Shown here one piece after another: positions 12,452 to 42,891 of a stretch of 64,000 nucleotides of DNA (position 1 is the stretch's first letter; every line of letters starts with the position of its first letter). The notes under the pieces are model-generated. The model was not told the DNA's origin. It worked only from the letters and a program-made list of their open reading frames with translations, and ran no database searches. The position numbers and the translations under genes are program-made. This DNA comes from Phycicoccus sonneratiae (GTDB lineage Bacteria; Actinomycetota; Actinomycetes; Actinomycetales; Dermatophilaceae): NCBI RefSeq assembly GCF_016887965.1, contig NZ_JAFDVD010000012.1:186001-250000 (forward strand). Direction: 5' to 3'.

Positions 12452-13635
12452 GCCGGGAGGCCGAGGCCCTTCGCGAGGACCATCCGCTGCACCTCGGAGG
12501 TGCCCTCGCCGATCTCGAGGATCTTCGCGTCGCGGTAGAACCGGGCCACGGGGTACTCCTCCATGAAGCCGTTGCCCCCGAAGACCTGGGTGGCGATTCG
12601 GGTGGCGGTCACGGCGGCCTCGGAGGTGTACAGCTTGGCCTTCGCGGCGGCCTGCTTGACCTCCTCGACCGAGCGGCGGCCGGCCTCGTGCTCGTCCTTG
12701 AGCCAGGCGGCGCGGTAGGTGAGCAGCCGCGCGGCGTCCTCCATGACGGCGAGGTCGGCGACGGGGAACGCGACCCCCTGGTTCACGCCGATGGGGCGGC
12801 CGAACGCGGTGCGCGTCTTCGCGTAGGCGGCGGCCTCCTCGCGCATCCGGGTGATGAGGCCGAGGGCGAGCGCGCTGATCGCGATGCGCCCGTCGTCGAG
12901 GGTCTTGAGGAACTGGTGGAAGCCCCGCCCACGCTCGCCGAGGAGGTTGGCCTCCGGGACGCGGCACCCGGCGAACGAGAGCCCGTGGGTGTCGGAGATG
13001 TTCCAGCCCATCTTCCGGTAGGCCGGCTCGACCGTGAAACCCGCTGTGCCGGACGGGATCATGATGGCGCTGATCTCGGGGCGGCCGTTCTCGAGGGTGC
13101 CGGTGCGCGCCGTGACCGTGACGACCGAGGTGATGTCGGTGCCGGAGTTCGTGATGAACGCCTTCGCCCCGTCGACGACCCAGTCGCCGCCGTCGAGCAC
13201 CGCCTTGGTGCGGGTGGCGCCCGCGTCCGACCCGGCGTCCGGCTCGGTGAGGCCGAAGCCGGCGAGCGCGCGACCGGCGACGAGGTCGGGCAGGAAGCGC
13301 TCCTTCTGCTCCTCGCTGCCGTAGGTGAGGATCGGGTTGATGCCGAGGCCGACGCCGGCCGAGAGCGTGATGCCGATGGACTGGTCGACCCGGCCGAGCT
13401 CCTCGATGGCGATGCACAGGCTGGTGAACGCGCCGCCGTCGGCGTCCTCGAGCGAGCCGCCGAAGGCCTCCGGCACGACGAGCCCGAAGAGCCCGAGCTC
13501 GCCCATCCGCGGCACGAGGTCGGCCGGGAAGTGGTGGTCCTCGTCCCACTGCGCGACGTGCGGCTCGACGGCCTCGGTGGCGAACTCGCGGACGACCGAC
13601 CGGAAGTCCTCGTGGTCCTTGCTCAGCTCGTACAT
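12448..13635 (-). CDS. Acyl-CoA dehydrogenase (isovaleryl-CoA-type candidate)
   Basis: A 395-residue FAD-dependent acyl-CoA dehydrogenase that forms the alpha-beta double bond of an acyl-CoA and passes electrons to ETF. Visible motifs: FGLTEPDAGSDAGATRT (FAD/substrate loop), WNISDTHGLSFAGCRVP, TRTAFGRPIGVNQGVAFPVADL, QVFGGNGFMEEYPVARFYRDAKILEIGEGTSE. The last stretch carries the usual short-chain enzyme pattern; the catalytic base could not be placed with certainty. First gene of the operon with the carboxyltransferase (ATGA overlap). Divergent to a MerR regulator with a strong palindrome between them. Isovaleryl-CoA is the most likely substrate, by context. Confidence 0.85.
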   Translation of the reverse strand: MYELSKDHEDFRSVVREFATEAVEPHVAQWDEDHHFPADLVPRMGELGLFGLVVPEAFGGSLEDADGGAFTSLCIAIEELGRVDQSIGITLSAGVGLGINPILTYGSEEQKERFLPDLVAGRALAGFGLTEPDAGSDAGATRTKAVLDGGDWVVDGAKAFITNSGTDITSVVTVTARTGTLENGRPEISAIMIPSGTAGFTVEPAYRKMGWNISDTHGLSFAGCRVPEANLLGERGRGFHQFLKTLDDGRIAISALALGLITRMREEAAAYAKTRTAFGRPIGVNQGVAFPVADLAVMEDAARLLTYRAAWLKDEHEAGRRSVEEVKQAAAKAKLYTSEAAVTATRIATQVFGGNGFMEEYPVARFYRDAKILEIGEGTSEVQRMVLAKGLGLPA

Positions 13636-13698
13636 GGGCGCCCCTTCGCGCTCGTGGCTCCGGCCCCGGGTCGCGGTGGCCGGCTGGTGGTCACGTTC

Positions 13699-13735
13699 TT
13701 GACGTTGACGTCAACGTAAAGCAATACTCGGCCCC
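13699..13735. promoter_or_regulatory. LiuR-like operator and MerR promoter
   Basis: ACGTTGAC/GTCAACGT (13702-13717) is a perfect 16-bp palindrome, extended by TTG on the left and AAA on the right. It resembles the ACGT-spaced sites of LiuR, the MerR-family repressor of leucine and branched-chain acid degradation. It lies between divergent starts at 13635 and 13736. AATACT (13723-13728), seven bases before the MerR GTG, is a likely leaderless -10. Confidence 0.7.
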
Positions 13736-14158
13736 GTGACAAGCCCGAGCACCACCGCCGCACCCGGCGCCGTCGACCCCGCGAGCCCCACGTGGACCAT
13801 CGCCGAGGTCGCCGAGGAGTTCGGGGTCACCCACCGCACGGTCCGCCACTACGAGGACCTCGGGCTCATCTCCCCCGAGCGCCGCGGCACCACCCGGGTC
13901 TACCACCGCCGCGACCGCACCCGGCTGGGGCTCATCCTGCGCGGCAAGCGGCTCGGCTTCCCGCTCGAGGAGATCCGCACGATCATCGACCTCTACGACG
14001 CCCCGCGCGGCCGGCGCAGCCAGCTCGAGTACGTCCTGGCGCAGATCGACGAGCGCCGCGAGGACCTCGAGCAGCGGCGTCGCGACCTCGAGGCGGCCCT
14101 CTCCGAGCTCACCGAGTTCGAGCGCCGCTGCCGCTCCGACCTCGAGCGGATGGCCTGA
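13736..14158 (+). CDS. liuR: MerR family regulator, LiuR-like
   Basis: A 140-residue MerR regulator. The winged HTH is plain: TWTIAEVAEEFGVTHRTVRHYEDLGLISPERRGTTRVYHRRD. It is followed by the dimerisation coiled coil (QIDERREDLEQRRRDLEAAL). There are no metal-binding cysteines, which separates it from metal sensors. LiuR proteins sense branched-chain acyl-CoA intermediates and repress acyl-CoA dehydrogenase/carboxylase operons; the divergent operon here is exactly that pair, and the intergenic palindrome resembles the LiuR site. The symbol is given on context and motif; the ligand is not shown. Confidence 0.8.
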   Translation: MTSPSTTAAPGAVDPASPTWTIAEVAEEFGVTHRTVRHYEDLGLISPERRGTTRVYHRRDRTRLGLILRGKRLGFPLEEIRTIIDLYDAPRGRRSQLEYVLAQIDERREDLEQRRRDLEAALSELTEFERRCRSDLERMA

Positions 14159-14173
14159 CCGTCCCGGGACCGC

Positions 14174-15100
14174 TCAGGACGGGGCGCCGAGGAAGGCGTC
14201 GATCTCGGCGCGGGTCGGGGCGGTGTCGGGGCCGCGCCGGGTGACCTTGAGGGCCCCCGCGGCGTTGGCCCGGGCCGCGGCGTCGGCCCACGGGAGCCCC
14301 GCCGCCCGCTCGGCGAGGAGCACGCCGGTGTGCGTGTCGCCCGCCCCGTTGGTGTCGACCGGTCGGCGCGGGTGGCCGGGGACGAAGACCTGCTCGTCCC
14401 CCTCGCGCACGAGGCATCCGCGCGGTCCGTCGCGGACGATGGTGACGGCGCCCGGCCGGAGCATCGCCGCGACGACCTGGGCGGCCTCGCGGATGCCACG
14501 GACGCCGGCGAGTGCGTCGGCCTCGTCGGCGTTGCCGGTCCACACGTCGGTACGGTCGAGGACGGCGTCGCGCACCCGCGCCTCGACCTCGACGAGGGCC
14601 GCTCCGGGGTCGAGCACGACGACCACCTCAGGGCCGAGGGCGCCGAGCCACTCGACGAGGGGGTCCCGCGTCCGGCCGAGGAGGCTGTAGCCGCTGACGC
14701 ACACGAGGTCGCCGGGGCCGGGGTCGCTCGTGGCGAGCGAGGCGATGCTGATCTCGCGCTCGGCGCCCTGCGTCGTCACGAAGGTCCGCTCGGCCGTCGG
14801 CTCGACGAGGACGACGCAGACGCCGGTGTCGAGGTCGGGCACCGGCGGTGCGGAGAGCTCGACGCCCTCGGCGGCCAGGGCGGCCCGGACGAGGTCCCCG
14901 TTCGGGCCGGTACCGACCGCGCCGGCGTGCACGGCACGGGCCCCCGAGCGGGCGGCCGCGAGGAGGATGGTGACCGCTCCCCCGGCGTACCGGTGGTACG
15001 AGCCGGCCATGACGTTGCCGCCACGAGCGGGCAGCACCGGCACCTCGAGCACCGCGTCGACGAGCGCCTGGGCGGTGTGGATGACGCGGGGGGCGGCCAT
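14174..15100 (-). CDS. PfkB-family (ribokinase-like) carbohydrate kinase
   Basis: A 308-residue ribokinase-fold sugar kinase. Evidence: the N-terminal glycine-rich MAGSYHRYAGGAVTILLAAARSGA segment that contacts the sugar, VVVLDPGAALV, TGNADEADALAG, and the ATP/catalytic motif DTNGAGDTHTGVLL with its base Asp. Substrate unknown; the fold covers ribose, adenosine, fructose phosphates and others. It is monocistronic, with TAGGGT six bases before its ATG on the minus strand (plus-strand 15107-15112). Confidence 0.85.
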   Translation of the reverse strand: MAAPRVIHTAQALVDAVLEVPVLPARGGNVMAGSYHRYAGGAVTILLAAARSGARAVHAGAVGTGPNGDLVRAALAAEGVELSAPPVPDLDTGVCVVLVEPTAERTFVTTQGAEREISIASLATSDPGPGDLVCVSGYSLLGRTRDPLVEWLGALGPEVVVVLDPGAALVEVEARVRDAVLDRTDVWTGNADEADALAGVRGIREAAQVVAAMLRPGAVTIVRDGPRGCLVREGDEQVFVPGHPRRPVDTNGAGDTHTGVLLAERAAGLPWADAAARANAAGALKVTRRGPDTAPTRAEIDAFLGAPS

Positions 15101-15123
15101 GCGCCGACCCTAGTGCCGCTCGG

Positions 15124-15984
15124 TCAGCCCACCGCCGTGCGGACCTCGTAGAGCTCGGGGAAGAAGGTGAGGTCGAGCGCCCTGCGGAGGAAGTCGACCC
15201 CGCTCGAACCGCCGGTACCGGTCTTGTGCCCGATGGTGCGCGTGACGACCTGCAGGTGCCGGAACCGCCACTGCTGGAACAGGTCCTCGACGTCGACGAG
15301 CTCCTCGCAGGTCTCGTACACGCCCCAGTGCTCGTCGGGCGCGGCGTACACCGAGGCGATCACCTCGACGAGCTCGGGCACCAGCCGGTAGGGCTGGCGG
15401 ACGTCCCGCTCGAGGACCGCGGCCGGCACCGGGTAGCCGCGTCGCGCCAGCAGCCGGAGGAACTCGTCGTAGAGCGTGGGCTCGGCGAGCAGCGTCTCCA
15501 GCCCCGTCCTCGCGCGCTCGTCGTGCTCGAAGACCCGCACCATCTCGGCGTTCTTGTTGCCGAGGAGGAACTCGACCGCGCGGTACTGGTCGCTCTGGAA
15601 CCCCGAGCTCGTCGCGAGGAACGGCCGGATGAGCGCGTACTCGCTGGGCGTCAGGGTGGCCAGCACGTCCCACATCTCGACGAGCTGGCGCTGCACGTGC
15701 TTGACCCGGGCCAGCCGCTTGAGGGCCGGCGCCAGCTCGTCGGCGGCGAGCAGCGCACGGGCCGACCGCAGCTCGTGGAGCAGCAGCTTGAGCCACAGCT
15801 CCGACACCTGGTGCTGGACGATGAACAACAGCTCGTCGTGCTGCACCGGCTCGCTGCGCGGGTGCTGCGCCGACAGCAGCGTGTCGAGGTCGAGGTAGGC
15901 GCCGTAGGACATCGCCGACCCGAAGTCGCGCGAGATGCCCTCCTCCAGCGCCCGCTGGGCCCGGTCGACCGCGTCGTCGCTCAT
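15124..15984 (-). CDS. kynA: Tryptophan 2,3-dioxygenase
   Basis: Haem enzyme that opens the indole ring of L-tryptophan to N-formylkynurenine, the first step of the kynurenine route. The 286-residue sequence shows the family hallmarks: YGAYLDLDTLLSAQHP near the start, DELLFIVQHQVSELWLKLLLHE, SSGFQSDQYRAVEF, then GHKTGTGGSSGVDFLRR with the haem-ligand region, and a C-terminal FFPELYEVRTAVG. The start is set at 15984 because CACGAT lies seven bases upstream; an in-frame ATG at 15993 is possible. No kynurenine formamidase or kynureninase gene is nearby, so the rest of the pathway must be elsewhere or absent. Confidence 0.93.
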   Translation of the reverse strand: MSDDAVDRAQRALEEGISRDFGSAMSYGAYLDLDTLLSAQHPRSEPVQHDELLFIVQHQVSELWLKLLLHELRSARALLAADELAPALKRLARVKHVQRQLVEMWDVLATLTPSEYALIRPFLATSSGFQSDQYRAVEFLLGNKNAEMVRVFEHDERARTGLETLLAEPTLYDEFLRLLARRGYPVPAAVLERDVRQPYRLVPELVEVIASVYAAPDEHWGVYETCEELVDVEDLFQQWRFRHLQVVTRTIGHKTGTGGSSGVDFLRRALDLTFFPELYEVRTAVG

Positions 15985-16007
15985 GGCGGCCATCGTGCCA
16001 CCGCCCC

Positions 16008-16562
16008 TCAGGGACGCGCCGACCACCCGGCGAGCACCCGCGCGACGAGGTCGTCCGGGCCCGCGCCCGCCGCGTCGACGAGCAGGTCCACGGACGCGGG
16101 GGCCACCGTGGCGGCGGGGACCGGCGCGCCGGCCTTGGCGAGGTCACGGGCCAGACCCCTCGCCCGGACCCGCGTGGCGAGCAGGTCCGCCGGCACGTGG
16201 AGCCAGCAGGTCGTGACCGAGGTCGCGCCGGCCGCCGCGCCCCACGCCGACCACGACCCGTCCGCGGCCTCGCGGGTGAACGGCGCGACGGCCACGACGT
16301 CGACCCCGGACCGGACGCAGTCGGCGACCACCGCTGCGAGACAGGCGTACCGGGCCTCGCGCAGTGCAGCGAACCGGGGGGAGTCGAGGTCGACCGGCAG
16401 GCCGTCCGCAGCGGCCACGGCCTCGAGGAGCGGCGTCGTCACGCTGTCGAGGTCGACGAGCGCGACGCCGGCCGCCCGCGCGACGAGGGCGCCGACGGTG
16501 GTCTTCCCCGACCCCGGAGGGCCGCCCACGCAGAGCAGCCGCCCCGGTCCGTCGGCGGCCAT
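16008..16562 (-). CDS. P-loop kinase-like protein of the sugar regulon
   Basis: A 184-residue P-loop NTPase with Walker A GGPPGSGKTT (13-22) and LVDLDSVTTPL as the likely substrate-binding segment; it resembles gluconate/shikimate-kinase-type small-molecule kinases. The rest is a compact alpha/beta domain with CWLHVPADLLATRVRARG as the lid region. It lies 7 bp downstream of the divergent aldolase and is probably in its operon, so a sugar or sugar acid may be phosphorylated. The substrate cannot be read from sequence. Confidence 0.72.
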   Translation of the reverse strand: MAADGPGRLLCVGGPPGSGKTTVGALVARAAGVALVDLDSVTTPLLEAVAAADGLPVDLDSPRFAALREARYACLAAVVADCVRSGVDVVAVAPFTREAADGSWSAWGAAAGATSVTTCWLHVPADLLATRVRARGLARDLAKAGAPVPAATVAPASVDLLVDAAGAGPDDLVARVLAGWSARP

Positions 16563-16569
16563 CACCGGC

Positions 16570-17604
16570 TCACGAGGGCGAGCCGACCGCGCCCCGGTAC
16601 CAGTCGGGGCCGACGAGTGCGGCGACCTCACCGGGGTCGACCGGCGTCCACGCCGGCGCCCCACGCCCCTCGAGGACCTCGGCGAGCTCGTCGAGGCGGC
16701 GGGCGGCGAGCTCGGCACCTGCGGCGCGGGCGGCGGCGTCCATCCGGCCGACGGCGTCGCCCCAGATGGCCCGGCCGGCCATGAAGCCGCTGCAGCCGTG
16801 GTCGGCGGCGACGTCGAGCTGGGTGCGGAAGCCCTCGAAGGTGACCCCCGCCGAGAGCAGCACCCACGGTCCGTCGATGGCGGAGTCCAGTGCGGCACAG
16901 GCCTCGTGGGCCGCGTCGAGGTCGTCGAGGTCGAGCACGGGGAACTCGACCTTCATGATGTCGGCGCCCGCCTGGCGGAACGACCGGGCCGACGCCAGCA
17001 CGCTGCTCCGACGCACCGCCCGCACGGCGGGGTCGGCGGTGTCCTCGTCCCCGACCGGGAACCACAGTGGCTCGACGACGAGGGGCATCTGCTGGGCGCG
17101 GCACTGCGCGGCCGCCTCGGCGACGACGGCGTGCTGCTGGGCGACGACCGCCTCGTCCTGGTCCTCGCGGTGGAAGACGACGAGCTTGGCGGCGTCGACC
17201 CCCAGCGTGGCGAGGACCGCGGGGTCCCAGCCCTCCTTGAGCCGCAGCCCGGTGTCGAAGCCGACGGCGCTGTCGGGCCGGTAGTAGAGGTCCTCGATTC
17301 CGCTGATCACCCCGACGTCGCCGGGCACCGCTCCGGCGGCGACGGACTGGCCGAGGCTCCAGATCGGGTCGAGGAGAACGGAGGTCGCGTGCCGCGACAG
17401 GACGCGCACCATGTCGAGCTTGGACTCGACGACCTCCTCGAAGGAGACGGCGTCGAGGTCGGCGTCGAAGAGTTTCAGGTAGTTCTCGGGGTGGTCGATG
17501 GCCATGGTACGGATGTGGCCGGCGGCGTCGCACAGGCGGGACATCCGCCGGTGCAGGCCGATCGTGGACGGAGTCGGGACTCGGGGTGTTGACAGCGCTG
17601 TCAT
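16570..17604 (-). CDS. LacD/YihT-like class I aldolase (divergent copy)
   Basis: A 344-residue TIM-barrel aldolase that should cleave a ketose bisphosphate, or a related phosphosugar, to dihydroxyacetone phosphate plus an aldehyde. It resembles tagatose-1,6-bisphosphate aldolase LacD and sulfofructose-phosphate aldolase YihT: TMAIDHPENY (33-42), SVLLDPIWSL, LVVEPLWFP, then IMKVEFPVL with Lys218 as the predicted Schiff-base lysine, and the phosphate-binding WVLLSAGVTFEGF and CSGFMAGRAIWGD. It is a paralogue of the aldolase at 21052. A LacI-type operator covers its first codons. Promoter: TTGTCG and TAAGGT (minus strand) with a 17-bp spacer, eight bases before ATG. Confidence 0.82.
   Translation of the reverse strand: MTALSTPRVPTPSTIGLHRRMSRLCDAAGHIRTMAIDHPENYLKLFDADLDAVSFEEVVESKLDMVRVLSRHATSVLLDPIWSLGQSVAAGAVPGDVGVISGIEDLYYRPDSAVGFDTGLRLKEGWDPAVLATLGVDAAKLVVFHREDQDEAVVAQQHAVVAEAAAQCRAQQMPLVVEPLWFPVGDEDTADPAVRAVRRSSVLASARSFRQAGADIMKVEFPVLDLDDLDAAHEACAALDSAIDGPWVLLSAGVTFEGFRTQLDVAADHGCSGFMAGRAIWGDAVGRMDAAARAAGAELAARRLDELAEVLEGRGAPAWTPVDPGEVAALVGPDWYRGAVGSPS
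17590..17603. promoter_or_regulatory. LacI-type operator O1, inside the aldolase start
   Basis: TGACAGCGCTGTCA is a perfect 14-bp palindrome with the central CG typical of LacI-family sites. It coincides with codons 1-5 of the minus-strand aldolase. Its near-identical partner is 66 bp away. Confidence 0.8.
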
Positions 17605-17612
17605 ACCGCCAT

Positions 17613-17641
17613 ACCTTACGAGACAGCAGGTTCGCCGACAA
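17613..17641 (-). promoter_or_regulatory. Promoter of the divergent aldolase-kinase operon
   Basis: On the minus strand TTGTCG (plus-strand 17636-17641) and TAAGGT (plus-strand 17613-17618) are separated by 17 bp. Transcription would start just before the ATG at 17604, next to operator O1. Confidence 0.5.
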
Positions 17642-17655
17642 GAGTCGGCATGAGT

Positions 17656-17669
17656 TGACAGCGCTGTCG
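17656..17669. promoter_or_regulatory. LacI-type operator O2, upstream of the main sugar operon
   Basis: TGACAGCGCTGTCG matches O1 at 13 of 14 positions. It lies about 20 bp before the kinase TTG start and overlaps a TTGACA (17655-17660). With O1 it allows looping by one tetramer or two dimers of the regulator encoded at 18636. Confidence 0.75.
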
Positions 17670-17688
17670 CAGGGCGAGGAGGCCCCCG

Positions 17689-18639
17689 TTGCTGGTCGTG
17701 ACCCCCAACACGTGCATCGACGTGACGACGTGGCTCGCCACGCTCGCGCCGGGCACCGTGAGTCGCTCGACCCGCACGCTCTCGACCGCCGGCGGCAAGG
17801 GCGTCAACGTCTGCCGCACGCTGCGGACCCTCGGCGGGACGCCCCGCCTCGTCGGCCTCTCGCCCGTCGAGGACGGTCGCCTCGAGCAGCTGCTCGCCGC
17901 CGAGGGCACCGCCTTCGTCCCCGTCGCGCACCGCGGCCAGGGCCGGATCGCGATGATCTTCCTCGAGGAGGGCGGTCGGGTCACCGTCGTCAACGGCCGC
18001 GGCCCCTCCCCCGAGGACTGGGACCCCACGACCCTCCTCCCCCGGGTGCGTGCCGAGCTCGACGGCGCCCCGGCCGTCGCCTGCTCGGGCTCGCTGCCCC
18101 CCGGGCTCCCGGACACCACCTACGCCGAGGTCGTCGCGGCGGCCCACGAGCACGGTGTCGAGGCCTACGTCGACGCCGCCCCCGCCGTGCTCGCCGCCAC
18201 CCTGTCGAGCGGCCCGGACCTCGTGAGCCCCAACGTCGGCGAGGCCGAGGCGCTGCTCCACGGCCGCACCGACGAGCACGTCGAGGAGTCCGGCGACGAC
18301 CTCGCCGAGCGCTGCCTCGGGGCCGCCCTCGAGCTGCACGCCCGCGGCGCCCGGCGCGCCGTCGTCACCGCCGGCTCGCACGGCGCGGCCCTGGCCACCG
18401 CCGACGGCACCTGGTGGCTGGGGGCCGCCCGGGTCCCCGTCGCCAACCCGATCGGGGCGGGCGACTCGTTCCTCGCCGGCACCTCCTCCGCCCTCGTCGG
18501 GGGCGCCACCGACGTCGACGCCGTCCGCTACGGGATGGCCGTCGCCGCGGCGGCCGTCCAGCACGAGCAGGGCGGAATGCTCGACCCCGCGCTCGTCGCG
18601 CCCGCCCTCGCGGCCCTCCCCGAGGCGGTGCCCGCATGA
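17689..18639 (+). CDS. 1-phosphofructokinase/tagatose-6-phosphate kinase-like (LacC-type) PfkB kinase
   Basis: A 316-residue PfkB kinase of the LacC/FruK branch. Features: VTPNTCIDVT near the start, STAGGKGVNVCRTLRTLGG (GGKGVN at 35-40), ACSGSLPPGLPDTTYAEV, SPNVGEAEALL, and NPIGAGDSF with catalytic Asp259. This branch adds the second phosphate to a hexulose phosphate, making the 1,6- (or 1,x-) bisphosphate that a LacD-type aldolase cleaves. TTG start with AGGAGG seven bases upstream; operator O2 lies just before. It overlaps the LacI gene by ATGA. First gene of a seven-gene operon. Confidence 0.82.
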   Translation: MLVVTPNTCIDVTTWLATLAPGTVSRSTRTLSTAGGKGVNVCRTLRTLGGTPRLVGLSPVEDGRLEQLLAAEGTAFVPVAHRGQGRIAMIFLEEGGRVTVVNGRGPSPEDWDPTTLLPRVRAELDGAPAVACSGSLPPGLPDTTYAEVVAAAHEHGVEAYVDAAPAVLAATLSSGPDLVSPNVGEAEALLHGRTDEHVEESGDDLAERCLGAALELHARGARRAVVTAGSHGAALATADGTWWLGAARVPVANPIGAGDSFLAGTSSALVGGATDVDAVRYGMAVAAAAVQHEQGGMLDPALVAPALAALPEAVPA

Positions 18640-19643
18640 GCCGCCCGACGATCTACGACGTCGCCCGCGAGTCCGGCTTCTCCATCAAGACCGTCTCGCG
18701 CGTCATCAACGAGGCGCCGAACGTCCGCAAGGAGACCGTCGACCGGGTCCGGGCCGCCATCGAGCTGCTCCAGTACCACCCGGACCCCGCGGCGCAGCGC
18801 CTCGGCGGCGGCAAGCTGCCGACCATCGGCGTCCTCGTCGACTCCATCGACGACCCGTTCTTCGCCCAGGTCGTCGCGGTCATCGAGGCCCGCGCGATGG
18901 ACGTCGGGATGGACGTCCTCGTCGCCTCCACCGGCATGGACGAGACGCGCATGCGGATGCAGATCCAGCGCCTCGCCCGCCGCGGCGTCGCCGGCCTCGT
19001 CGTCGCACCGTTCGGCGACCCCGGGACCGTCGCGGCCGCGCTGCCCGACGACGTCCCGGTCGTCGTCGTCGACCGCAAGTGCGGCGTCACCGACAAGGAC
19101 GTCGTCCGGGTCACCGACGAGCAGGGGGCCACCGACGCCGTGCGCCACCTCGTCGCGCGGGGCCACCGGCGCATCGGGTTCCTCGGCAAGACCTCGGCGT
19201 TCAACACCCTCCAGGACCGGTACACCGGCTACGAGAAGGCGCTCGCCGAGGCCGGCATCGAGGTCGACGCCCGGCTCGTCGAGACGCGCGCGTGGACCGC
19301 CGACGAGGCCTACCCCTACGCCCTCGCGATGCTCGCCACCGCCGACGCCCCCACCGCCGTCTTCGCCGCCAGCCCGATGATGGGCCTCGGGGTGCTGCGC
19401 GCCCAGCAGCGGCTGCACCGCCAGGACGTCGCCCTCGTCATCTTCGGCGACTACCCCGTCGCCGAGCTGATGACCCCGCCGACCACGGTCATCGACCAGC
19501 GGCCGACCGCGTTGGCGGACACCGCCTTCGACCTGCTGGCGCGTCGCATCCAGGACCCGGGCGCCGAGGTCCTCGACACCGTCCTGCCCACCCTGCTCGT
19601 GCCGCGCGGCTCGGGCGAGCTCGCCCCGAGGGCCGAGTCGTGA
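18636..19643 (+). CDS. LacI family transcriptional regulator of the sugar regulon
   Basis: A 335-residue LacI-type repressor. The HTH and hinge are PTIYDVARESGFSIKTVSRVINEAPNVRKETVDRVRAAIE with the minor-groove hinge AAQRLGGGK. The periplasmic-binding-protein-like core follows: TIGVLVDSIDDPFFAQVVAVIE, GLVVAPFGDPG, RHLVARGHRRIGFLG, and TTVIDQRPTALADTAFDLL. It lies inside the operon, overlapping both neighbours by four bases, and should bind the two palindromes at 17590 and 17656. The effector is probably the imported sugar or its phosphate. Confidence 0.92.
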   Translation: MSRPTIYDVARESGFSIKTVSRVINEAPNVRKETVDRVRAAIELLQYHPDPAAQRLGGGKLPTIGVLVDSIDDPFFAQVVAVIEARAMDVGMDVLVASTGMDETRMRMQIQRLARRGVAGLVVAPFGDPGTVAAALPDDVPVVVVDRKCGVTDKDVVRVTDEQGATDAVRHLVARGHRRIGFLGKTSAFNTLQDRYTGYEKALAEAGIEVDARLVETRAWTADEAYPYALAMLATADAPTAVFAASPMMGLGVLRAQQRLHRQDVALVIFGDYPVAELMTPPTTVIDQRPTALADTAFDLLARRIQDPGAEVLDTVLPTLLVPRGSGELAPRAES

Positions 19644-21055
19644 GCGTCGTCGACCTCGGGTTCGACCTCGGCACGACGGTCACCAAGGTCAGCGCGGTCG
19701 CCGACGACGGCCGGCGGCTGGCCGACCACTCCGTCGCCACCGACTGGCGCGAGACCGGCGAGGGCCGCGTCGACCGGAGCCCGGCATCCGTCGTCGAGGC
19801 CGTCGAGCTCCTCCTCGCCCGGGCCGTCGCCGACCTCGGACCGGGCACGACCGTCCGCTCCGTCGGCTTCACCTCGATGGCCGAGGCCGGCGTCCTCGTC
19901 GACGCCGCCGGCCGCGAGCAGTCGCCCGTCATCGCCTGGTACGACCCCCGCGGCACCGAGCAGGCCGCAGCCCTCCCCGCCGCCCTGCGCGACGAGTTCC
20001 CCGCCCGCACAGGGCTCCCGGTCAGCCACGTCGCCTCCCTCTTCAAGCTGCTGCACCTGCGCGACGCAGGCCTCGACCTGCGCGGGCTCCAGTGGCTCTC
20101 GGTGCCCGAGTTCGTCGTCCTGCGCCTCGGTGGCCGGCGGGTCGCCGAGCTCTCCCTCCTCGGGCGCACCGGCCTCCTCGACGTCCACACGAACCGCCCG
20201 TGGCTCCCGGCCCTCGAGCACCTCGGGGTCGGCCCCGACCTCCTCCCCGAGGTCGTGGCCGCCGGCTCCCCCGCCGGCACGGTCCGCGCCGACCACCCGG
20301 TCGCCGCCCTGCGCGGCGCCGTGCTCACCGTCGCCGGTCACGACCACGCGGTCGCGGCCGCCGCGACCGGTTGCGGCGCACCGGGATCCGCGCTCGACAG
20401 CTTCGGCACCGCCGAGGCCTACCTCGCGTCCGCGTCCCACGTCCCCGACCCCGCCGTCGTGCGCGACCTCGCGGTGCGCGGCATCTCCGTGTACCCGCAC
20501 ACCGTGCGGGGGGCCACCGGGTTCATCGGCGGCACGCGCACCGGCCTGGTCCTCAAGCGCGTCCAGCAGGTGCTCGGCGCCGAGCACGACCCCGCCCGCT
20601 CCGCCCTCGACGCCGCCACGCTGGCCCTCGCCCCCGGCGACACCGCCGACGTCAGCGTCACGGGCTACGCGATGGAGGACCACGCGGTCGACATCCACCT
20701 CGGGTCCGAGGCCCACACGCCCGCCCACGTCTGGCGCGCGGCCATCGACGGCGGCACGGCCCGCGGCCGGGCCCTGCTCGGCACGCTCCGCGAGGCGGGC
20801 GTTCCCGTCGAGCGGCTCGTCGTGGCGGGCGGCTGGACCCGGATGCGCTCGGTCCTCGCCGCCCGCCAGGACCTCGCCCCCGTCGTCGAGGTGTCGGCCG
20901 TCGACCAGCCCGGCACGTGGGGCGCGGCCCGCTTCGGCGCCTGGGCGGCCCAGCACGCCGACCCCACCGACCCCGACCCCCGACCCCCCGCGGGGTGGTT
21001 CACCGCCCACCTCGCCCCCGTCCCCCCGCAGCCCACCCAGGAGGCACCCGCATGA
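19640..21055 (+). CDS. FGGY-family carbohydrate kinase
   Basis: A 471-residue FGGY sugar kinase. The N-terminal ATPase fold shows DLGFDLGTTVTKVSAV and IAWYDPRGTEQ; the GHDH motif (233-236) supplies the catalytic Asp region; DSFGTAEAYLAS and VVAGGWTRMRSVLAARQ belong to the C-terminal ATP domain. It would make the first phosphorylation of an incoming ketose, before the LacC-like kinase. GTG start overlapping the LacI stop; ATGA overlap with the aldolase. Members act on xylulose, ribulose, fuculose, tagatose and others; the exact sugar cannot be told. Confidence 0.85.
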   Translation: MSVVDLGFDLGTTVTKVSAVADDGRRLADHSVATDWRETGEGRVDRSPASVVEAVELLLARAVADLGPGTTVRSVGFTSMAEAGVLVDAAGREQSPVIAWYDPRGTEQAAALPAALRDEFPARTGLPVSHVASLFKLLHLRDAGLDLRGLQWLSVPEFVVLRLGGRRVAELSLLGRTGLLDVHTNRPWLPALEHLGVGPDLLPEVVAAGSPAGTVRADHPVAALRGAVLTVAGHDHAVAAAATGCGAPGSALDSFGTAEAYLASASHVPDPAVVRDLAVRGISVYPHTVRGATGFIGGTRTGLVLKRVQQVLGAEHDPARSALDAATLALAPGDTADVSVTGYAMEDHAVDIHLGSEAHTPAHVWRAAIDGGTARGRALLGTLREAGVPVERLVVAGGWTRMRSVLAARQDLAPVVEVSAVDQPGTWGAARFGAWAAQHADPTDPDPRPPAGWFTAHLAPVPPQPTQEAPA

Positions 21056-21954
21056 CCACCACCGGACTCGACGCCATCGCCACCGACGCAGGGACCTTCG
21101 CCGTCCTCGCGATGGACCAGCGCGGCACCCTGCGCCGCATGCTCGCCGCGGTCGACCGCGCCGACACCCCCGACGAGGAGATCGTCGCCTTCAAGCGCGA
21201 CAAGATCGCCTCGCTCGCCGGCAGCGCCTCGGCCTTCCTCGTCGACCCGACCTTCGGCCTCCCGGGCGCCCGCGCCGCGGAGACCACCGAGCACTTCGGC
21301 CTGCTCCTCGCGGCCGAGCCGCCGAACCGGCTCACCCACGACGGCGAGCCGGTCGTCACCCTCGACCCCGCCCAGGACGCGGCGTGGGTGCGCGACAGCG
21401 GCGCCCACGCGATGAAGTTCCTCGTCCAGGTGCGGGCCGACCGCCCCGCCGGCGCCGACGGCCGGGACACGACGGCCGAGGCCGTCGAGGTGATGCGCAC
21501 CCTCGTCGCCGACTGCGCCTCGGTCGGCATCCCGTCGGTCGTCGAGAACCTCGTCTTCCCGCTGTCCGGCGAGGAGCCCCTCTCCCCCGAGGCCCGGGCC
21601 GACGCCATCATCGAGGCCGCGGTGCTCATCGACCAGCTGAACCCGAGCCTGCTGAAGCTCGAGTACCCGGGCAGTCCCGAGGCGTGCCGCCGTCTGGCCG
21701 AACGCATCTCGGCCCCCTGGGCGGTGCTGTCGGCCGGCGTCTCCTCCGACGAGTTCGCAGACGTCCTGCGCGTCAGCTGCGACGAGGGAGGCGCCAGCGG
21801 CTTCATCGCCGGCCGCTCCGTGTGGCGCGAGGCCGTCGCGATGGACCACGCCGAGCGCGTCGCCTTCCTCTCCGACACCGGGCGCCGCCGCCTCGACGAG
21901 TACCGCTCGATCATCGAGGGCCGGGCCCGCTCGTACCGGGAGGCGGCGGCATGA
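21052..21954 (+). CDS. LacD/YihT-like class I aldolase (operon copy)
   Basis: A 300-residue class I aldolase close to YihT/LacD in length and motif order: GTFAVLAMDQRGTLRRML (15-31), SASAFLVDPTFGLPG, HAMKFLVQVRAD, SVVENLVFPLSG, LLKLEYPG with predicted Schiff-base Lys202, WAVLSAGVSSDEF and GASGFIAGRSVWREA. It should split a phosphorylated hexulose to triose products. GGAGG precedes its ATG; ATGA overlaps couple it to both the kinase upstream and the ABC ATPase downstream. Having two aldolase paralogues in one regulon is unusual; they may act on C4 epimers or different sugars. Confidence 0.85.
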   Translation: MTTTGLDAIATDAGTFAVLAMDQRGTLRRMLAAVDRADTPDEEIVAFKRDKIASLAGSASAFLVDPTFGLPGARAAETTEHFGLLLAAEPPNRLTHDGEPVVTLDPAQDAAWVRDSGAHAMKFLVQVRADRPAGADGRDTTAEAVEVMRTLVADCASVGIPSVVENLVFPLSGEEPLSPEARADAIIEAAVLIDQLNPSLLKLEYPGSPEACRRLAERISAPWAVLSAGVSSDEFADVLRVSCDEGGASGFIAGRSVWREAVAMDHAERVAFLSDTGRRRLDEYRSIIEGRARSYREAAA

Positions 21955-22715
21955 GCCCCCGCTTCGAGGCCACCGGCCTGAGCCGGAGGTTCGGCCGGGT
22001 GCAGGCCCTCGACAACGCCGACTTCGACGTCGACGCCGGCGAGGTCGTCGCCCTCATCGGCGACAACGGCGCCGGCAAGTCCACGCTCGTCAAGGCGCTC
22101 ACCGGCAACCTCGACCTCGACGCGGGCGAGGTCCGCTTCGAGGGCGAGCCGGTGCACTTCGCCACGCCGCAGGACGCCTCGCGGCTCGGCATCGAGGTCG
22201 TCCACCAGGACCTCGCGCTCGCCCCCCACCTCGACGCGGCGCAGAACATGTTCCTCGGCCGCGAGGTGATGCGCCCCGGCGTGCTCGGTCACCTCGGTTT
22301 CATGGACACCCCGCAGATGCGCAGGCGCTCGGCCCAGGCCTTCACCGAGCTCGGGTCCGCGGTGCGCAGCGTCGTCGTCCCCGTCGGGTCGATGTCCGGC
22401 GGCCAGAAGCAGACGGTGGCCATCGCCCGGGCCGTCGCGTGGGCCGACAAGGTGCTCTTCCTCGACGAGCCCACCGCCGCCCTCGGTGTCGTGCAGACCC
22501 GCAACGTCCTCGACACCATCAAGAAGGTCCGCGACCGGGGCATCGCGGTCGTCCTCATCTCGCACTCGATGCCCCACGTGCTCGAGGTCGCCGACCGGGT
22601 CCAGGTGCTCCGCCTCGGCCGGCGCGTCGCGACCTACCGCGGCGCCGACACCAGCGTCGAGGAGCTCGTGGGCGCCATGACCGGAGCCCTGGACCCGAAG
22701 GAGGGAGCCGCATGA
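21951..22715 (+). CDS. Sugar ABC transporter, ATP-binding protein (FrcA-like, single domain)
   Basis: A 254-residue ABC ATPase energising sugar import. Walker A GDNGAGKST (37-45), Q-loop EVVHQDLALAPHLDAAQNMFLG, signature SGGQKQ, Walker B VLFLDEPTAALGV and the H-switch LISHSMPHVLEVADRVQVLRLG. Only one nucleotide-binding domain is present, unlike the double-domain RbsA/XylG; this matches the FrcA group that works as a homodimer in fructose/mannose/ribose uptake. Four-base overlaps on both sides. Confidence 0.9.
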   Translation: MSPRFEATGLSRRFGRVQALDNADFDVDAGEVVALIGDNGAGKSTLVKALTGNLDLDAGEVRFEGEPVHFATPQDASRLGIEVVHQDLALAPHLDAAQNMFLGREVMRPGVLGHLGFMDTPQMRRRSAQAFTELGSAVRSVVVPVGSMSGGQKQTVAIARAVAWADKVLFLDEPTAALGVVQTRNVLDTIKKVRDRGIAVVLISHSMPHVLEVADRVQVLRLGRRVATYRGADTSVEELVGAMTGALDPKEGAA

Positions 22716-23764
22716 GCACCAGCACCGGAGCCGGTACCGGCACCAGCACCGCCCCGACGGCGTCGACCATCGAGACGACGGCCGCCCACGGCAACCTCAC
22801 CGACCGCGTCAAGGCGATGCAGTCGGTGTGGATCCTCGGGGTCCTCGTCGTCATCGTCGCCGTCTTCGGGGTGATGTCGCCGAGCACGTTCCTCACGACC
22901 GGCAACCTGACGAACATCGCGCAGAACGTGTCCATCTGGGCCGTGCTCGCCGTCGGGATGACGTTCGTCATCATCACCTCCGGCATCGACCTGTCGGTCG
23001 GCTCGGTCCTCGTCGTCTCGTCCGTCGTCTCGGCCAAGGTCATGGAGTCGATGGGCGACAGCGGGTGGACGACGGCGCTCGTCGGGCTCGCGCTCGCGGT
23101 CGTCGTCGGCATCTTCTGGGGCGCCCTCAACGGCTTCCTCGTCGCCAGGGCCAAGGTGCCGCCGCTCATCGTCACGCTCGGCACCCTGTCGGTCGCGCTC
23201 GGCGTGGCCCAGATCCTCACCGGCGGGCTCGACATCCGCTCGGCGCCGCAGGTCCTCCAGGACAACATCGGCTACGGACGGCTCGCGGGCATCCCGGCCA
23301 TCACGATCATCGCGCTCGTGGTCGTCGTGCTCGGCGGGATCATGCTGCACCGCACCCGGTTCGGTCGCTACACCTACGCGATCGGGTCGAACGAGACCTC
23401 GGCGCGCCGGGTCGGCATCAACGTCGACCGCAAGCTCGTCCAGATCTACGCGCTGTCCGGCTTCCTCGCCGGCATCGCCGGCATCCTCTCCCTCGCCCAG
23501 TACGGGACGACGACGATCGCCGGCCAGTCCCTGACCAACCTCAACGTCATCGCGGCGGTCGTCATCGGCGGCACGTCCATCTTCGGCGGCCAGGGGTCGA
23601 TGTTCGGCTCCATGGTCGGTCTCTTCATCCCCGCGGTCCTGCAGTCCGGGTTCGTCATCGTCGGCGTCTCCCCGTACTGGCAGACCGTGGCGGTCGGCTC
23701 GATCCTCATCACCGCCGTCTACGTCGACCAGCACCGGCGGGCCGCCGCCGTGCGGGGCGGCTGA
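22712..23764 (+). CDS. Sugar ABC transporter permease (FrcC/RbsC-like)
   Basis: A 350-residue membrane permease of the ribose/xylose class (BPD_transp_2). A Thr/Ser-rich cytoplasmic N-terminus leads into about nine hydrophobic segments. Family motifs: NLTNIAQNVSIWAVLAVGMTFVIITSGIDLSVGSV, GALNGFLVARAKVPPLIVTLGT, RFGRYTYAIGSNETSARRVGINV with the ATPase-contact loop, and NVIAAVVIGGTSIFGGQGS. It probably forms a homodimer in the membrane with the 22 kb ATPase. Start codon overlaps the ATPase stop. Confidence 0.92.
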   Translation: MSTSTGAGTGTSTAPTASTIETTAAHGNLTDRVKAMQSVWILGVLVVIVAVFGVMSPSTFLTTGNLTNIAQNVSIWAVLAVGMTFVIITSGIDLSVGSVLVVSSVVSAKVMESMGDSGWTTALVGLALAVVVGIFWGALNGFLVARAKVPPLIVTLGTLSVALGVAQILTGGLDIRSAPQVLQDNIGYGRLAGIPAITIIALVVVVLGGIMLHRTRFGRYTYAIGSNETSARRVGINVDRKLVQIYALSGFLAGIAGILSLAQYGTTTIAGQSLTNLNVIAAVVIGGTSIFGGQGSMFGSMVGLFIPAVLQSGFVIVGVSPYWQTVAVGSILITAVYVDQHRRAAAVRGG

Positions 23765-23820
23765 CGGTCCTCTCGACCCTGCACCACCCGACAACGAAGT
23801 CACCCAGAAAGGCACGACCC

Positions 23821-24810
23821 ATGCGAAGCAACCTCAGGTTCACCGCTGCCGGGCTCGGAGCGGCGCTGGCCCTCGCGGCCTGCTCCACCGGAGCGCCGTC
23901 GTCCGACTCCTCGGGCGGCTCCAGCGGCGGCGGCAACGACAACAAGAACATCGCCTTCGTCCAGGGCGTCGCCGGCGACGAGTTCTACATCACCATGCAG
24001 TGCGGCATCGAGGCCAAGGCCAAGGAGCTCGGGTACACGGTGACGACGCAGGGCCCGCAGAAGTTCGACCCGACCCTGCAGAAGCCGATCGTCGACTCGG
24101 TCACCGCCTCCAAGCCCGCCGCGCTGCTCGTCGCCCCCACCGACGTCCAGGCGATGCAGGCCCCGCTGCAGCAGGCGGCCGCGGCGGGCATCAAGGTCGT
24201 CCTCGTCGACACCACCGTCAACGACCCGTCCTTCGCCGTCTCCGAGATCAGCTCGGACAACGTCGGCGGCGGGAAGGCCGCCTTCGACGCCATCAAGCAG
24301 GCCAAGCCCAGCGGCGGCAAGGTGCTCGTCATCTCGACCGACCCGGGTGTCTCCACCGTCGACGCGCGCGTCAAGGGCTTCGAGGACGCCGCCAAGGCCG
24401 ACAGCGCGTTCAACTACCTCGGCGTGCAGTACAGCCACAACGACCCGGCGACCGCGGCGAACCTCGTCTCCTCGGCCCTCCAGAAGGACCCGGACATCGT
24501 CGGCATCTTCGCGACGAACCTGTTCTCCGCCGAGGGCTCGGCGACCGGTGTGCGCCAGGCCGGGGCCAAGGACCTGACCATCGTCGGCTTCGACGCCGGT
24601 CCCAACCAGATCAAGGCCCTTGAGGACGGCACCGTCCAGGCCCTCGTCGCCCAGCAGCCGGGCACCATCGGCACCGACGGTGTCGAGCAGGCCGTCGCCG
24701 CCCTGACCGGCGGCTCGGTGGAGAAGAAGATCCAGACCGGCTTCACCATCATCACCAAGGACAACCTGTCCGGTGAGGGTGGCCAGGCGGCCTACAAGTC
24801 GACCTGCTGA
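23821..24810 (+). CDS. Sugar ABC transporter substrate-binding lipoprotein (FrcB/RbsB-like)
   Basis: A 329-residue lipoprotein with signal peptide and lipobox LALAAC (Cys21), then a Ser/Gly-rich tether. The mature part is a periplasmic-binding-protein fold of the ribose/fructose type: IAFVQGVAGDEFYITMQCGIEAKAKELGY, ALLVAPTDVQAM, VVLVDTTVNDPSFAVSEISSDN, KVLVISTDPGVSTVDARVKGFE, DIVGIFATNLFSAEGSATGV. Last gene of the operon; the 56-bp gap from the permease and a strong terminator hairpin after it allow separate tuning. It captures the sugar outside the membrane. Confidence 0.92.
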   Translation: MRSNLRFTAAGLGAALALAACSTGAPSSDSSGGSSGGGNDNKNIAFVQGVAGDEFYITMQCGIEAKAKELGYTVTTQGPQKFDPTLQKPIVDSVTASKPAALLVAPTDVQAMQAPLQQAAAAGIKVVLVDTTVNDPSFAVSEISSDNVGGGKAAFDAIKQAKPSGGKVLVISTDPGVSTVDARVKGFEDAAKADSAFNYLGVQYSHNDPATAANLVSSALQKDPDIVGIFATNLFSAEGSATGVRQAGAKDLTIVGFDAGPNQIKALEDGTVQALVAQQPGTIGTDGVEQAVAALTGGSVEKKIQTGFTIITKDNLSGEGGQAAYKSTC

Positions 24811-24826
24811 CGCGGGTCCCCCGACC

Positions 24827-24867
24827 GCGGGGCCGCCACGTGCCGTGAGGGGCCGTGGCGGCCCCGC
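24827..24867. terminator. Strong hairpin terminator between convergent genes
   Basis: A perfect 14-bp stem: GCGGGGCCGCCACG (24827-24840) pairs with 24854-24867, 13-nt loop. There is no T-tract, which is common in high-GC actinobacteria. It lies between the substrate-binding protein stop (24810) and the convergent gene stop (24881) and could serve both. Confidence 0.75.
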
Positions 24868-24880
24868 TGCGCGTCCGGGG

Positions 24881-25372
24881 TCAGCCGGTGGCGACGCCGA
24901 CGAGGGCCGCGTTCCCGCGGGCGTCCACGCGCACGGTCGCGACCGCCGTCCCGGCCTGCACCGCGGAGGTCACCGCGGCCGCCTCGTCCTGCGGGAGCCA
25001 GAGGCTCTCGATGCCGCAGCGCAGCCGCCATCCGGAGTCGTCGCAGCGCAGGTACGTCCCCCCGGTCGGCGCGCGGCGCAGCACCTCGCCGCCGACCCAG
25101 ACCGCACCCTGCCGGGTGAGCGGGACGTAGGCGGTACCGCGCTCGTCCTCCCCCACCGGCACCGAGTCCCCGGTGCCGGAGCTGCCGGGCAGGTCGGGGT
25201 AGGACAGGTCGACGTAGGCACCGCGCCCGGGGTCCACGGGGTCGACGGCGGCCACCCGCAGCCGCACCTCCTCGCCGGTGAGCCGGGCCGACAGCGGTGC
25301 CCAGACGGCCACGCCGACGAGGACGAGCTGGGCCGCCGCCGCGGCGACGACACGGGTGGTGCGGGGCGTCAT
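24881..25372 (-). CDS. GDYXXLXY domain-containing protein
   Basis: A 163-residue protein with an N-terminal membrane anchor (VVAAAAAQLVLVGVAVWAPL) and an extracytoplasmic domain. The name motif GDYxxLxY appears as RGAYVDLSY (Asp replaced by Ala), preceded by RLRVAAVDPVDP. Later blocks are GTAYVPLTRQGAVWVGGEV and CGIESLWLP. It overlaps the DUF2157 gene by ATGA, the standard partnership of this family. Function is unknown; a membrane complex with the DUF2157 protein is likely. Confidence 0.85.
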   Translation of the reverse strand: MTPRTTRVVAAAAAQLVLVGVAVWAPLSARLTGEEVRLRVAAVDPVDPGRGAYVDLSYPDLPGSSGTGDSVPVGEDERGTAYVPLTRQGAVWVGGEVLRRAPTGGTYLRCDDSGWRLRCGIESLWLPQDEAAAVTSAVQAGTAVATVRVDARGNAALVGVATG

Positions 25373-26640
25373 GACGCGCCCTCCTCCCGCTCGGCGAGCA
25401 GCCGGCGGCGACCGCGGTCGGCGAGCACGCCCGTGCCGAGGAGCACCACGCCGACCGCGAGGAAGAGCACGGCGCCGGAGAGGATCGGAACGAAAACCGC
25501 GAAGGCCTGGGTCGTCGTGAAGAGGACGAGGGCTGCGGTGGCCGCCCAGGTGAGCCGGTCGGAGTCGCGCGCGCCGCCGAGCACGGCGTACCCGCTCGCG
25601 ACGCCGAGGTAGACGGCGACCGCCACGACGGCCCGGACCCAGTCCCCGGGGGCGAGGTCGGACGCGACGCTCGGGTCGGCCTCCGGTCGCCACAGCGCCA
25701 GCAGGACGACGAGGACCAGACCGAGCGCGGCCAGGCCAACCTCGAGCCGGTCGAGGCGGTGCCCCGTGACCACCGCGGCGGCGGCCAGCACGACGGCCAG
25801 GCCCAGCACGACCCACAGCAGCGGGCTGCCCGCCCGGGTCTCCTGCGCGAACGGCAGGGCGGCCCCGAAGAGCGCCCCGAGGGTCAGCAGCCCGCCGACC
25901 TCGCGCCACGGGACGCCGAGGGGTCGCCAGGCGTCGGCACGGGCGCGCAGCCGCAGGTGGAGCACGCCGACGGAGACCGCGGCGAGGGCGGCGGTCGCGA
26001 AGGCCAGGGTGACCGAGAGGACGTCGTTCGAGGCGTCGGCGGTGTGCCGGACGAGCCAGGAGGCCCCGAGGGCGATGCCGACGACGGCGGGTCCGACCCC
26101 CGCGACGGCGTAGGCGTAGAGGAGCGCGCCGAGGGCCCAGACGCCGAGCAGCGCGGGCTCGTAGGCCGCCACCTGGAGGCTCTGGGCCGCCTGGAAGACG
26201 ACCGCACCGAACGCGGCCGCGACGAGCAGCCGGACGGCGCCCACCACGGGCGAGGCGACGTCGCCGAGCCGCTCACGCCGGGTCGCCAGCACCTCGGCGG
26301 TGACGAGCAGCCCGACCCAGAGCGCCACGACGACGACGAACCGCACGAGGGGCGACAGCTCGTCGAGGTTGGCGGCGACGGTCCACAGCAGGCCGACGCC
26401 GACGAAGAGCGCCCCGAGGGTGAGGACGATGCTGGCCAGCGTGACGCGGCGGTGTGCGACGTAGCGCGCGCGGACCGCCGCGGCCGTGGCGTCGTCGAGG
26501 AGGCCCTCCGCCCGCCAGGCCTCGATCTGGGCGTCGAGCCAGGCGAGCTGGCCGGGCGTGGCCGGGATCGGGACGGCGGGGGGAGGTCCGTCAGGAGCGG
26601 GCGAGGGGTGGGAGGGGGCGGAGGTGGGTGGCGCGGACAT
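25369..26640 (-). CDS. DUF2157 multi-spanning membrane protein
   Basis: A 423-residue protein. A Pro-rich N-terminus is followed by a soluble DUF2157 helix region (QLAWLDAQIEAWRAEGLLDDATAAAVRARY) and then some 12 hydrophobic segments to the C-terminus. GAGGAGG precedes the ATG at 26640. Cotranscribed and coupled with the GDYXXLXY gene downstream. No biochemical role is established for this family. Confidence 0.85.
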   Translation of the reverse strand: MSAPPTSAPSHPSPAPDGPPPAVPIPATPGQLAWLDAQIEAWRAEGLLDDATAAAVRARYVAHRRVTLASIVLTLGALFVGVGLLWTVAANLDELSPLVRFVVVVALWVGLLVTAEVLATRRERLGDVASPVVGAVRLLVAAAFGAVVFQAAQSLQVAAYEPALLGVWALGALLYAYAVAGVGPAVVGIALGASWLVRHTADASNDVLSVTLAFATAALAAVSVGVLHLRLRARADAWRPLGVPWREVGGLLTLGALFGAALPFAQETRAGSPLLWVVLGLAVVLAAAAVVTGHRLDRLEVGLAALGLVLVVLLALWRPEADPSVASDLAPGDWVRAVVAVAVYLGVASGYAVLGGARDSDRLTWAATAALVLFTTTQAFAVFVPILSGAVLFLAVGVVLLGTGVLADRGRRRLLAEREEGAS

Positions 26641-42766: not shown

Positions 42767-42891
42767 GTCCCCAGCGTCCCGCAGGCCCTGCGGGGCGGTG
42801 GCAGAACGTGACAGGGCTCGCGTCCCGGAGTCGTCCGGAGGTGCCCGCTCCGGGGTCGGTCGGCCCCCCGCGACGCCCGTACACTCTCGGG

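Follow-up and report, generated by a model that had tools for sequence, protein, structure and literature searches.

D-Tagatose is used by Klebsiella and Bacillus licheniformis by way of a phosphotransferase system (PTS), the kinase TagK and a GatY-type class II aldolase. The LacABCD tagatose-6-phosphate pathway of Lactococcus (L139) includes PTS import, the LacAB isomerase, a PfkB-type kinase and a class I aldolase of the LacD family that acts on a ketohexose phosphate, and the sulfoglycolytic Embden-Meyerhof-Parnas (sulfo-EMP) pathway of Escherichia coli (YihS, YihV and YihT; L137) employs the same class I aldolase family and a PfkB-type kinase. The latter two families also occur together in the DNA of Phycicoccus sonneratiae analysed here (contig NZ_JAFDVD010000012.1, positions 186,001 to 250,000), a stretch of 64,000 nucleotides referred to as the window. 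At 16008–24810 of the window, nine intact open reading frames form one divergent unit, which is probably a dedicated ketohexose catabolic divergon, in which ATP-binding cassette (ABC) import, two phosphorylations and aldol cleavage would be placed under LacI control.

This interpretation is based on the gene content, the catalytic motifs, the operators and their conservation, and the recurrence of the module, and from these observations we infer the reactions, the order of the phosphates, the substrate and the role of a side arm. The sugar taken up by the ABC importer would be a ketose, with D-tagatose or something closely related being most likely. The FGGY kinase would then put on the first phosphate, probably at C1, and the PfkB-family kinase PfkB1 the second. 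The class I aldolase ald2 would cleave the ketose 1,6-bisphosphate via a Schiff base at Lys202 to give dihydroxyacetone phosphate and glyceraldehyde 3-phosphate. The LacI protein should repress both arms at two identical palindromes and be released by the sugar or its phosphate. A second aldolase, ald1, and a P-loop kinase would form the side arm, possibly for a monophosphorylated substrate or product. A preliminary description of this DNA had proposed a single divergon under LacI that combines uptake of a ketose with two phosphorylations and aldol cleavage; this remains the best reading, and the module recurs with the same partners.

The rightward arm (17689 to 24810) includes, in this order, genes for PfkB1, the LacI-family regulator (18636–19643, + strand; PF00356 and PF13377), the FGGY kinase, ald2, and the importer ATPase, permease and binding protein. 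Five gene pairs in this arm overlap by 4 bases, given the chosen start codons (TTG was taken for PfkB1). The leftward arm consists of ald1 (17604 to 16570), the P-loop kinase gene, a dioxygenase-like gene and a second PfkB-type kinase gene, and ends at 14174. The genes listed in the preliminary description are all present and open, and, apart from the permease, their families were confirmed by Pfam. The divergent unit described there is also real, but the leftward strand continues past the P-loop gene through the dioxygenase-like and PfkB-type genes. Together, the two arms comprise 11 open high-GC genes at 14174–24810, all of which were covered between Pfam and NCBIfam (the permease by the NCBIfam scan alone). 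The assembly of the genome that includes the window is 4.1 Mb in 33 contigs.

Genes related to ald2 are rare. Within the order, 11 of 248 genomes carry one at E 1e-30, as do 7 of 296 within the class, and the ald2 profile at 1e-40 matched 14 of 396 genomes of the phylum; the FGGY profile at E 1e-50 matched 27 of these 396, the window's own genome being counted each time. The closest named records carrying the aldolase are from Phycicoccus and Nostocoides. The surroundings of the FGGY gene were taken from the own genome and 16 others of the 27 matching genomes, and those of the aldolase gene from the 14 matching genomes as regions round nine matches in eight genomes, plus G789, G829 and G021. 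In a comparison of 21 loci (L018–L024 and L026–L039), the FGGY kinase, an ald2-type aldolase and this importer occur together in 12, four of which are from close relatives, and a PfkB1 match is present in 10 of the 12. Four loci are variants, among them L035 without a matching FGGY kinase and L034 with an aldolase from another clade, and five (L031–L033, L038 and L039) include weak aldolases and no module. The FGGY, ald2 and importer combination was found again in L088 and L089. These belong to the best nine FGGY loci outside the window (L088–L096; stretches of 7.8–20 kb), which include at least one matching importer gene in seven cases, a PfkB1-type match in five and an ald2-type aldolase in two. 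Lower-scoring FGGY loci (L097–L103) and the aldolase matches L104, L105 and L111 were set aside. Hence, the earlier statement that no textbook operon matches was overstated: the core recurs across the phylum, and the locus is therefore less odd than claimed. No recognisable description of the gene set was found in the portions of the literature searched, including those of PMC11968277, PMC5816610, PMC3454389 and PMC8938411.

In L095 and L096, ald2 is replaced by a class II aldolase (PF01116). The L096 enzyme is a class II ketose-bisphosphate aldolase (TIGR00167, 221.9 bits, cut-off 215.6), and that of L095 just misses the same cut-off at 210.4 bits. L096 has no ald2 match, and its binding protein is 74% identical to that of the window (67% over the aligned length). 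Beside this shared importer, the role of ald2 in L096 thus seems to be filled by an unrelated aldolase family. The P-loop kinase gene recurs in L021, L023, L034, L036, L037 and L089, and adjoins ald1 in L021 and L089. In Phycicoccus sp. HDW14 (L024, 4086–12689), the dioxygenase, FGGY, ald2 and permease genes were broken up in tblastn; this looks like frame errors in the record.

The two putative LacI operators, O1 (17591–17602) and O2 (17657–17668), share the 12-mer GACAGCGCTGTC, for which 0.01 occurrences are expected in the window. The operator pair of the preliminary description is thus beyond chance; it is also confined to the divergon, as TGACAGCGCTGTCA with at most one mismatch was found at just these two places in the own genome (98.8% complete). 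With two mismatches, six further places were found against five for a backward control pattern, and hence these sites were not trusted. A wider LacI regulon is unsupported, the own genome having no other site with 0–1 mismatch. The exact 12-mer pair is conserved in 9 of 20 related loci checked: all four close relatives (L018, L019, L020 and L024) carry the pair with a spacing of 66–68 bases, and the distant loci L026, L028, L029, L030 and L035 include the exact 12-mer twice, 13 bases apart. A TTGACA hexamer runs into O1 and, as read by eye, has TACCTT or TACGGT 17 bases behind it in all five aligned sequences (TTGACA-N17-TACCTT in the window). Therefore, O1 would cover the rightward -35 element and sit at the ald1 start. 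A promoter scan of 13600–25500 reported a single promoter-like site, at 13699 outside the divergent region, leaving the hexamers at O1 unreported, and a terminator scan of the same range gave no terminator-like site. Elsewhere in the genome (C33:14646–14738), two LacI-like palindromes, TGACAACGTTGTCA and TGACATCGTTGTCA, lie 79 bases apart and are perhaps operators of another regulator.

The FGGY kinase (19640–21055, + strand) matches FGGY_N (PF00370) with 72.8 bits (cut-off 28.8) and FGGY_C (PF02782) with 26.6 bits (cut-off 27). It reaches no NCBIfam cut-off, the best model being XylB with 79.6 versus 380.25 bits, and falls into a clade of 19 rows (100/98) that is found in several families of Actinomycetota and excludes E. 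coli XylB, FucK, RhaB, GlpK, LsrK and AraB. Thus, neither cut-offs nor tree placed it in the xylulo-, fuculo-, rhamnulo-, ribulo-, glycerol or autoinducer-2 (AI-2) kinase subfamily, and the tree did not settle the position of the phosphate.

PfkB1 (17689–18639, + strand; PF00294) is a PfkB-family hexose(-phosphate) kinase of the 1-phosphofructokinase (1-PFK)/LacC type that scores below all cut-offs: 204.5 versus 216.4 bits for TIGR03168, 197 versus 292 for TIGR03828 (1-phosphofructokinase) and 101.7 versus 409.55 for TIGR01231 (lacC). Among solved structures, tagatose-6-phosphate kinases come nearest (89.7 bits), just ahead of a fructose-1-phosphate kinase (85.9 bits). The designation LacC-like is therefore uncertain: the score is under the lacC cut-off, the 1-PFK model scores higher and solved relatives of both types are near-equal; typing by tree gave no assignment. 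PfkB1 is the only strong match of this type in the genome (203.9 bits, cut-off 216.4; the next gives 63). The small P-loop kinase-like protein (16008–16562, - strand; AAA_33, PF13671, 51.3 bits) is a possible sugar or glyceraldehyde kinase; its search against solved relatives gave two marginal matches and nothing more.

Both aldolases, ald1 (16570–17604, - strand) and ald2 (21052–21954, + strand), belong to the LacD/YihT family, with 65.2 and 70.4 bits, respectively, against the PF01791 cut-off of 23.8. Neither approaches the cut-off of the LacD equivalog TIGR01232 (54.1 and 60.5 versus 432.2 bits). The Schiff-base lysines proposed before are correct: the corresponding motif of YihT and LacD has its lysine at the position aligned with Lys202 in ald2 and Lys218 in ald1. 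Also kept in the two proteins are the glutamate, a second lysine and the GR motif, taken as catalytic by analogy with LacD and YihT, and the signs of a sugar-phosphate pocket are therefore retained in both. They had been called paralogous, which is correct insofar as they share a family; however, 33% identity (residues 11–292) and two old clades rule out a recent duplication and indicate old, diverged subfamilies. The ald2 clade has 14 rows (99/97), all with a DQR motif that is also present in LacD and YihT, and the ald1 clade consists of five ald1 rows and L163 (99/93), all with DHP instead. The ald1 profile (E 1e-45) matched 4 of 394 genomes of the class, and just the own genome and G108 (L163) belong to the ald1 clade; the match in G456 is its ald2 gene, and that in G882 (L164) falls in another clade. 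A third PF01791 gene of the genome, at 42808–43881 of the window, encodes a deoxyribose-phosphate aldolase (159 bits, over cut-off) and lies outside the regulon.

Among solved structures, ald2 is closest to YihT (4.9e-22), and in the tree its clade and that of YihT are sisters, with support below the starred level (94/82); this would fit a sulfosugar locus with sulfofructose-1-phosphate aldolases like YihT. Such a function is very unlikely. The YihT clade (100/100) is separate from that of ald2, a pair of FGGY and PfkB kinases does not fit sulfo-EMP and, consistent with the preliminary description, no sulfoquinovosidase, sulfoquinovose isomerase or sulfolactaldehyde enzyme is present among the 11 genes scanned, to which the search was confined. 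The sulfosugar function was rejected on the aldolase clade and the gene content of the locus. In the family to which the window's genome belongs, L108 (7424–16161) includes a YihT-clade aldolase, a PfkB-type kinase, an L-fucose-isomerase-like gene and a gene of glycoside hydrolase (GH) family 31 (closest model alpha-xylosidase), and is possibly a sulfosugar locus.

A third motif variant, DHR, was found in L107, L109 and L110. L110 (8745–13422) is an inositol locus, as judged by IolD (835 bits) and IolB (211.6 bits), both over cut-off. The aldolase substrate of the inositol pathway carries one phosphate and a carboxylate, and the LacD-family DHR aldolase of L110 may perform the last inositol cleavage step. 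In L142 and L163, relatives of ald1 have one kinase-like gene as a neighbour (the family match is weak in L163). The DHR and DHP aldolases and these single-kinase neighbours led to the idea that DQR goes with a second anionic group and that the substrate of ald1 is a monophosphate. The motif is not borne out as a clear-cut indicator of bisphosphate use: DQR aldolases in L113–L115 adjoin one ROK kinase and no second kinase, and L026 (DQR) has PfkB1 alone. Since some DQR aldolases also sit by a single kinase, that ald1 cleaves a monophosphate is a weak suggestion.

FucK and RhaB are FGGY kinases that phosphorylate C1. By this precedent, the product of the FGGY kinase could be cleaved directly as a ketose 1-phosphate, as in the fuculose and rhamnulose pathways, with PfkB1 serving another purpose. 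The single-kinase surroundings of the ald1 clade (L142 and L163) and of the DQR aldolases (L113–L115) agree with this route, as does the lack of a PfkB1 match in the stretches examined of L023 and L034. It is nevertheless improbable, as PfkB1 heads the rightward unit and accompanies the FGGY, ald2 and importer genes so regularly; of the two such loci without it, L027 is a contig of 6.5 kb. Still less credible is a forked ketose pathway under one repressor, in which ketose 1-phosphate made by the FGGY kinase would either follow the PfkB1/ald2 route or be cleaved by ald1 to dihydroxyacetone phosphate and free glyceraldehyde, the latter then being phosphorylated by the P-loop kinase. If true, bacteria would have an equivalent of the fructolysis of liver, including a glyceraldehyde kinase from a new family, but the single-kinase DQR aldolases of L113–L115 weaken the DQR/DHP argument and make it less likely.

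The importer comprises an ATPase with one ABC domain (21951–22715, + strand; 254 amino acids; PF00005, 114 bits), which we take to be Frc-like, a CUT2-type permease (22712–23764, + strand; ribose and allose permease models 197 and 181 bits, cut-offs 398 and 396) and a sugar-binding protein (23821–24810, + strand; PF13407, 176 bits) with a lipoprotein-like leader recognised by eye. The binding protein is 42% identical to PDB entry 5dkv (1.7e-55) and has the same residue at 12 of 12 pocket positions compared, which are those that line ribose in RbsB; in the RbsB and 2ioy pockets, 7 of 12 are equal. Among 17 module binding proteins, including that of the window, 12 match 5dkv at all 12 positions and five at 11. 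Rhizobial proteins that share 80–86% identity with 5dkv are encoded one gene away from a LacD-like aldolase, itself followed by a ROK kinase (L113–L115). The 5dkv structure reportedly holds D-tagatose; literature searches for the structure found no paper that shows this. Thus, of the earlier suggestion of D-tagatose or a relative, D-tagatose is favoured by the pocket and is the leading candidate substrate, unproven and with somewhat less than an even chance; another ketohexose is a possible but less favoured substrate.

Isomerase-like and mannosidase genes in relatives keep D-fructose or D-mannose open as the substrate. In this case, the FGGY kinase would be a fructokinase, PfkB1 would produce fructose 1,6-bisphosphate, ald2 would be a fructose-bisphosphate aldolase, and the relatives would isomerise mannose to fructose. 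A phosphomannose isomerase (PMI)-type gene is present in eight of the nine loci L088–L096, and also in L021, L022 and L037, although the family matches are weak where tested (manA, 53–58 versus 116.2 bits). D-Mannose-isomerase-like genes occur in L034 (442 bits) and L143 (480 bits; cut-off 600), GH38 and GH2 genes in the FGGY locus L095, and GH125 and GH38 genes beside a binding-protein relative in Deinococcus; the genome has no strong 1-PFK-type kinase other than PfkB1. However, the window locus has no isomerase, and elsewhere the own genome includes manA over cut-off, a fructokinase-model match of 134.5 bits (the cut-off of 450 is reached by none of 14 control genomes) and two class II aldolases, so that a further aldolase reserved for plain fructose 1,6-bisphosphate would be superfluous. 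In addition, at a position where the window's protein and 5dkv have N, D is found in the binding proteins of Embleya and Deinococcus, yet L090 also has D and L034 has N. A fructose or mannose function seems rather unlikely. The Embleya locus (L143, 2622–9873) is on a plasmid and includes an importer relative with the D-mannose-isomerase-like gene, a LacI gene and a fructokinase-like gene.

Several observations weigh against a dedicated ketohexose divergon as outlined above. As the FGGY kinase fits no named subfamily, choosing between C1 and C6 for its phosphate is guesswork. In the PfkB1 tree, which has long branches and low resolution (4 of 16 inner branches starred), the PfkB1-like kinase of L096 groups with reference kinases. 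L026 has the importer, PfkB1 and ald2 but no FGGY match, and L023 has the FGGY kinase and ald2 without this importer or PfkB1. The 12-mer is absent from 11 of the 20 loci checked, including the module loci L021, L022, L036, L037, L088 and L089; another of the 11, L027, begins inside its lacI gene. D-Tagatose is a reported rather than a confirmed ligand of 5dkv, and the pocket does not separate tagatose from mannose, matching at 12 of 12 positions in L034 and 11 of 12 in L143, both with mannose-isomerase-like genes. Finally, relatives carry genes of the PMI type and of mannosidase families, which suggest mannose or fructose instead.

The remaining two genes of the leftward arm are a tryptophan 2,3-dioxygenase-like gene (15124–15993, - strand; TIGR03036, 386.8 bits, cut-off 390.7; PF03301), which is probably outside the sugar pathway, and the gene for a second PfkB-family sugar kinase (14174–15100, - strand; PF00294, 139 bits; below all listed NCBIfam cut-offs), which is the last of the arm and an uncertain member of the regulon. 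The order of the two genes is kept in the close relatives L018–L020 and L024, and not in the Nocardioidaceae locus L021.

The locus is made up of known enzyme families throughout, and the FGGY clade and the second aldolase have no substrate assigned by the tools used. For a ketose pathway in Actinomycetota, it provides a small group of proteins that lends itself to testing. As the FGGY clade lacks the six named kinases and recurs in several families of the phylum, one assay of this kinase would help annotate many genomes. The DQR/DHP split is a simple motif and a candidate mark of aldolase substrate type, and kinases and aldolases for rare ketoses would be useful for making tagatose and related sugars.

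Compared with LacABCD, the window has ABC import, an FGGY kinase and LacI control, and no LacAB isomerase or PTS import was found among the 11 genes scanned; both aldolases and PfkB1 also lie far below the lacD and lacC cut-offs. In the PTS/TagK/GatY route, the chemistry from tagatose 1-phosphate via the 1,6-bisphosphate down to trioses would equal that proposed here, with an FGGY kinase in place of PTS phosphorylation and a class I in place of a class II aldolase. From sulfo-EMP the window differs in the separate aldolase clade and the absence of sulfosugar enzymes from the genes scanned. With Frc/Rbs-type CUT2 importers and 5dkv it shares the one-domain ATPase and RbsB-like binding protein, and with 5dkv all 12 pocket positions compared, at 42% identity overall, whereas the rhizobial loci of 5dkv-like proteins use a ROK kinase where the window has the FGGY and PfkB pair.

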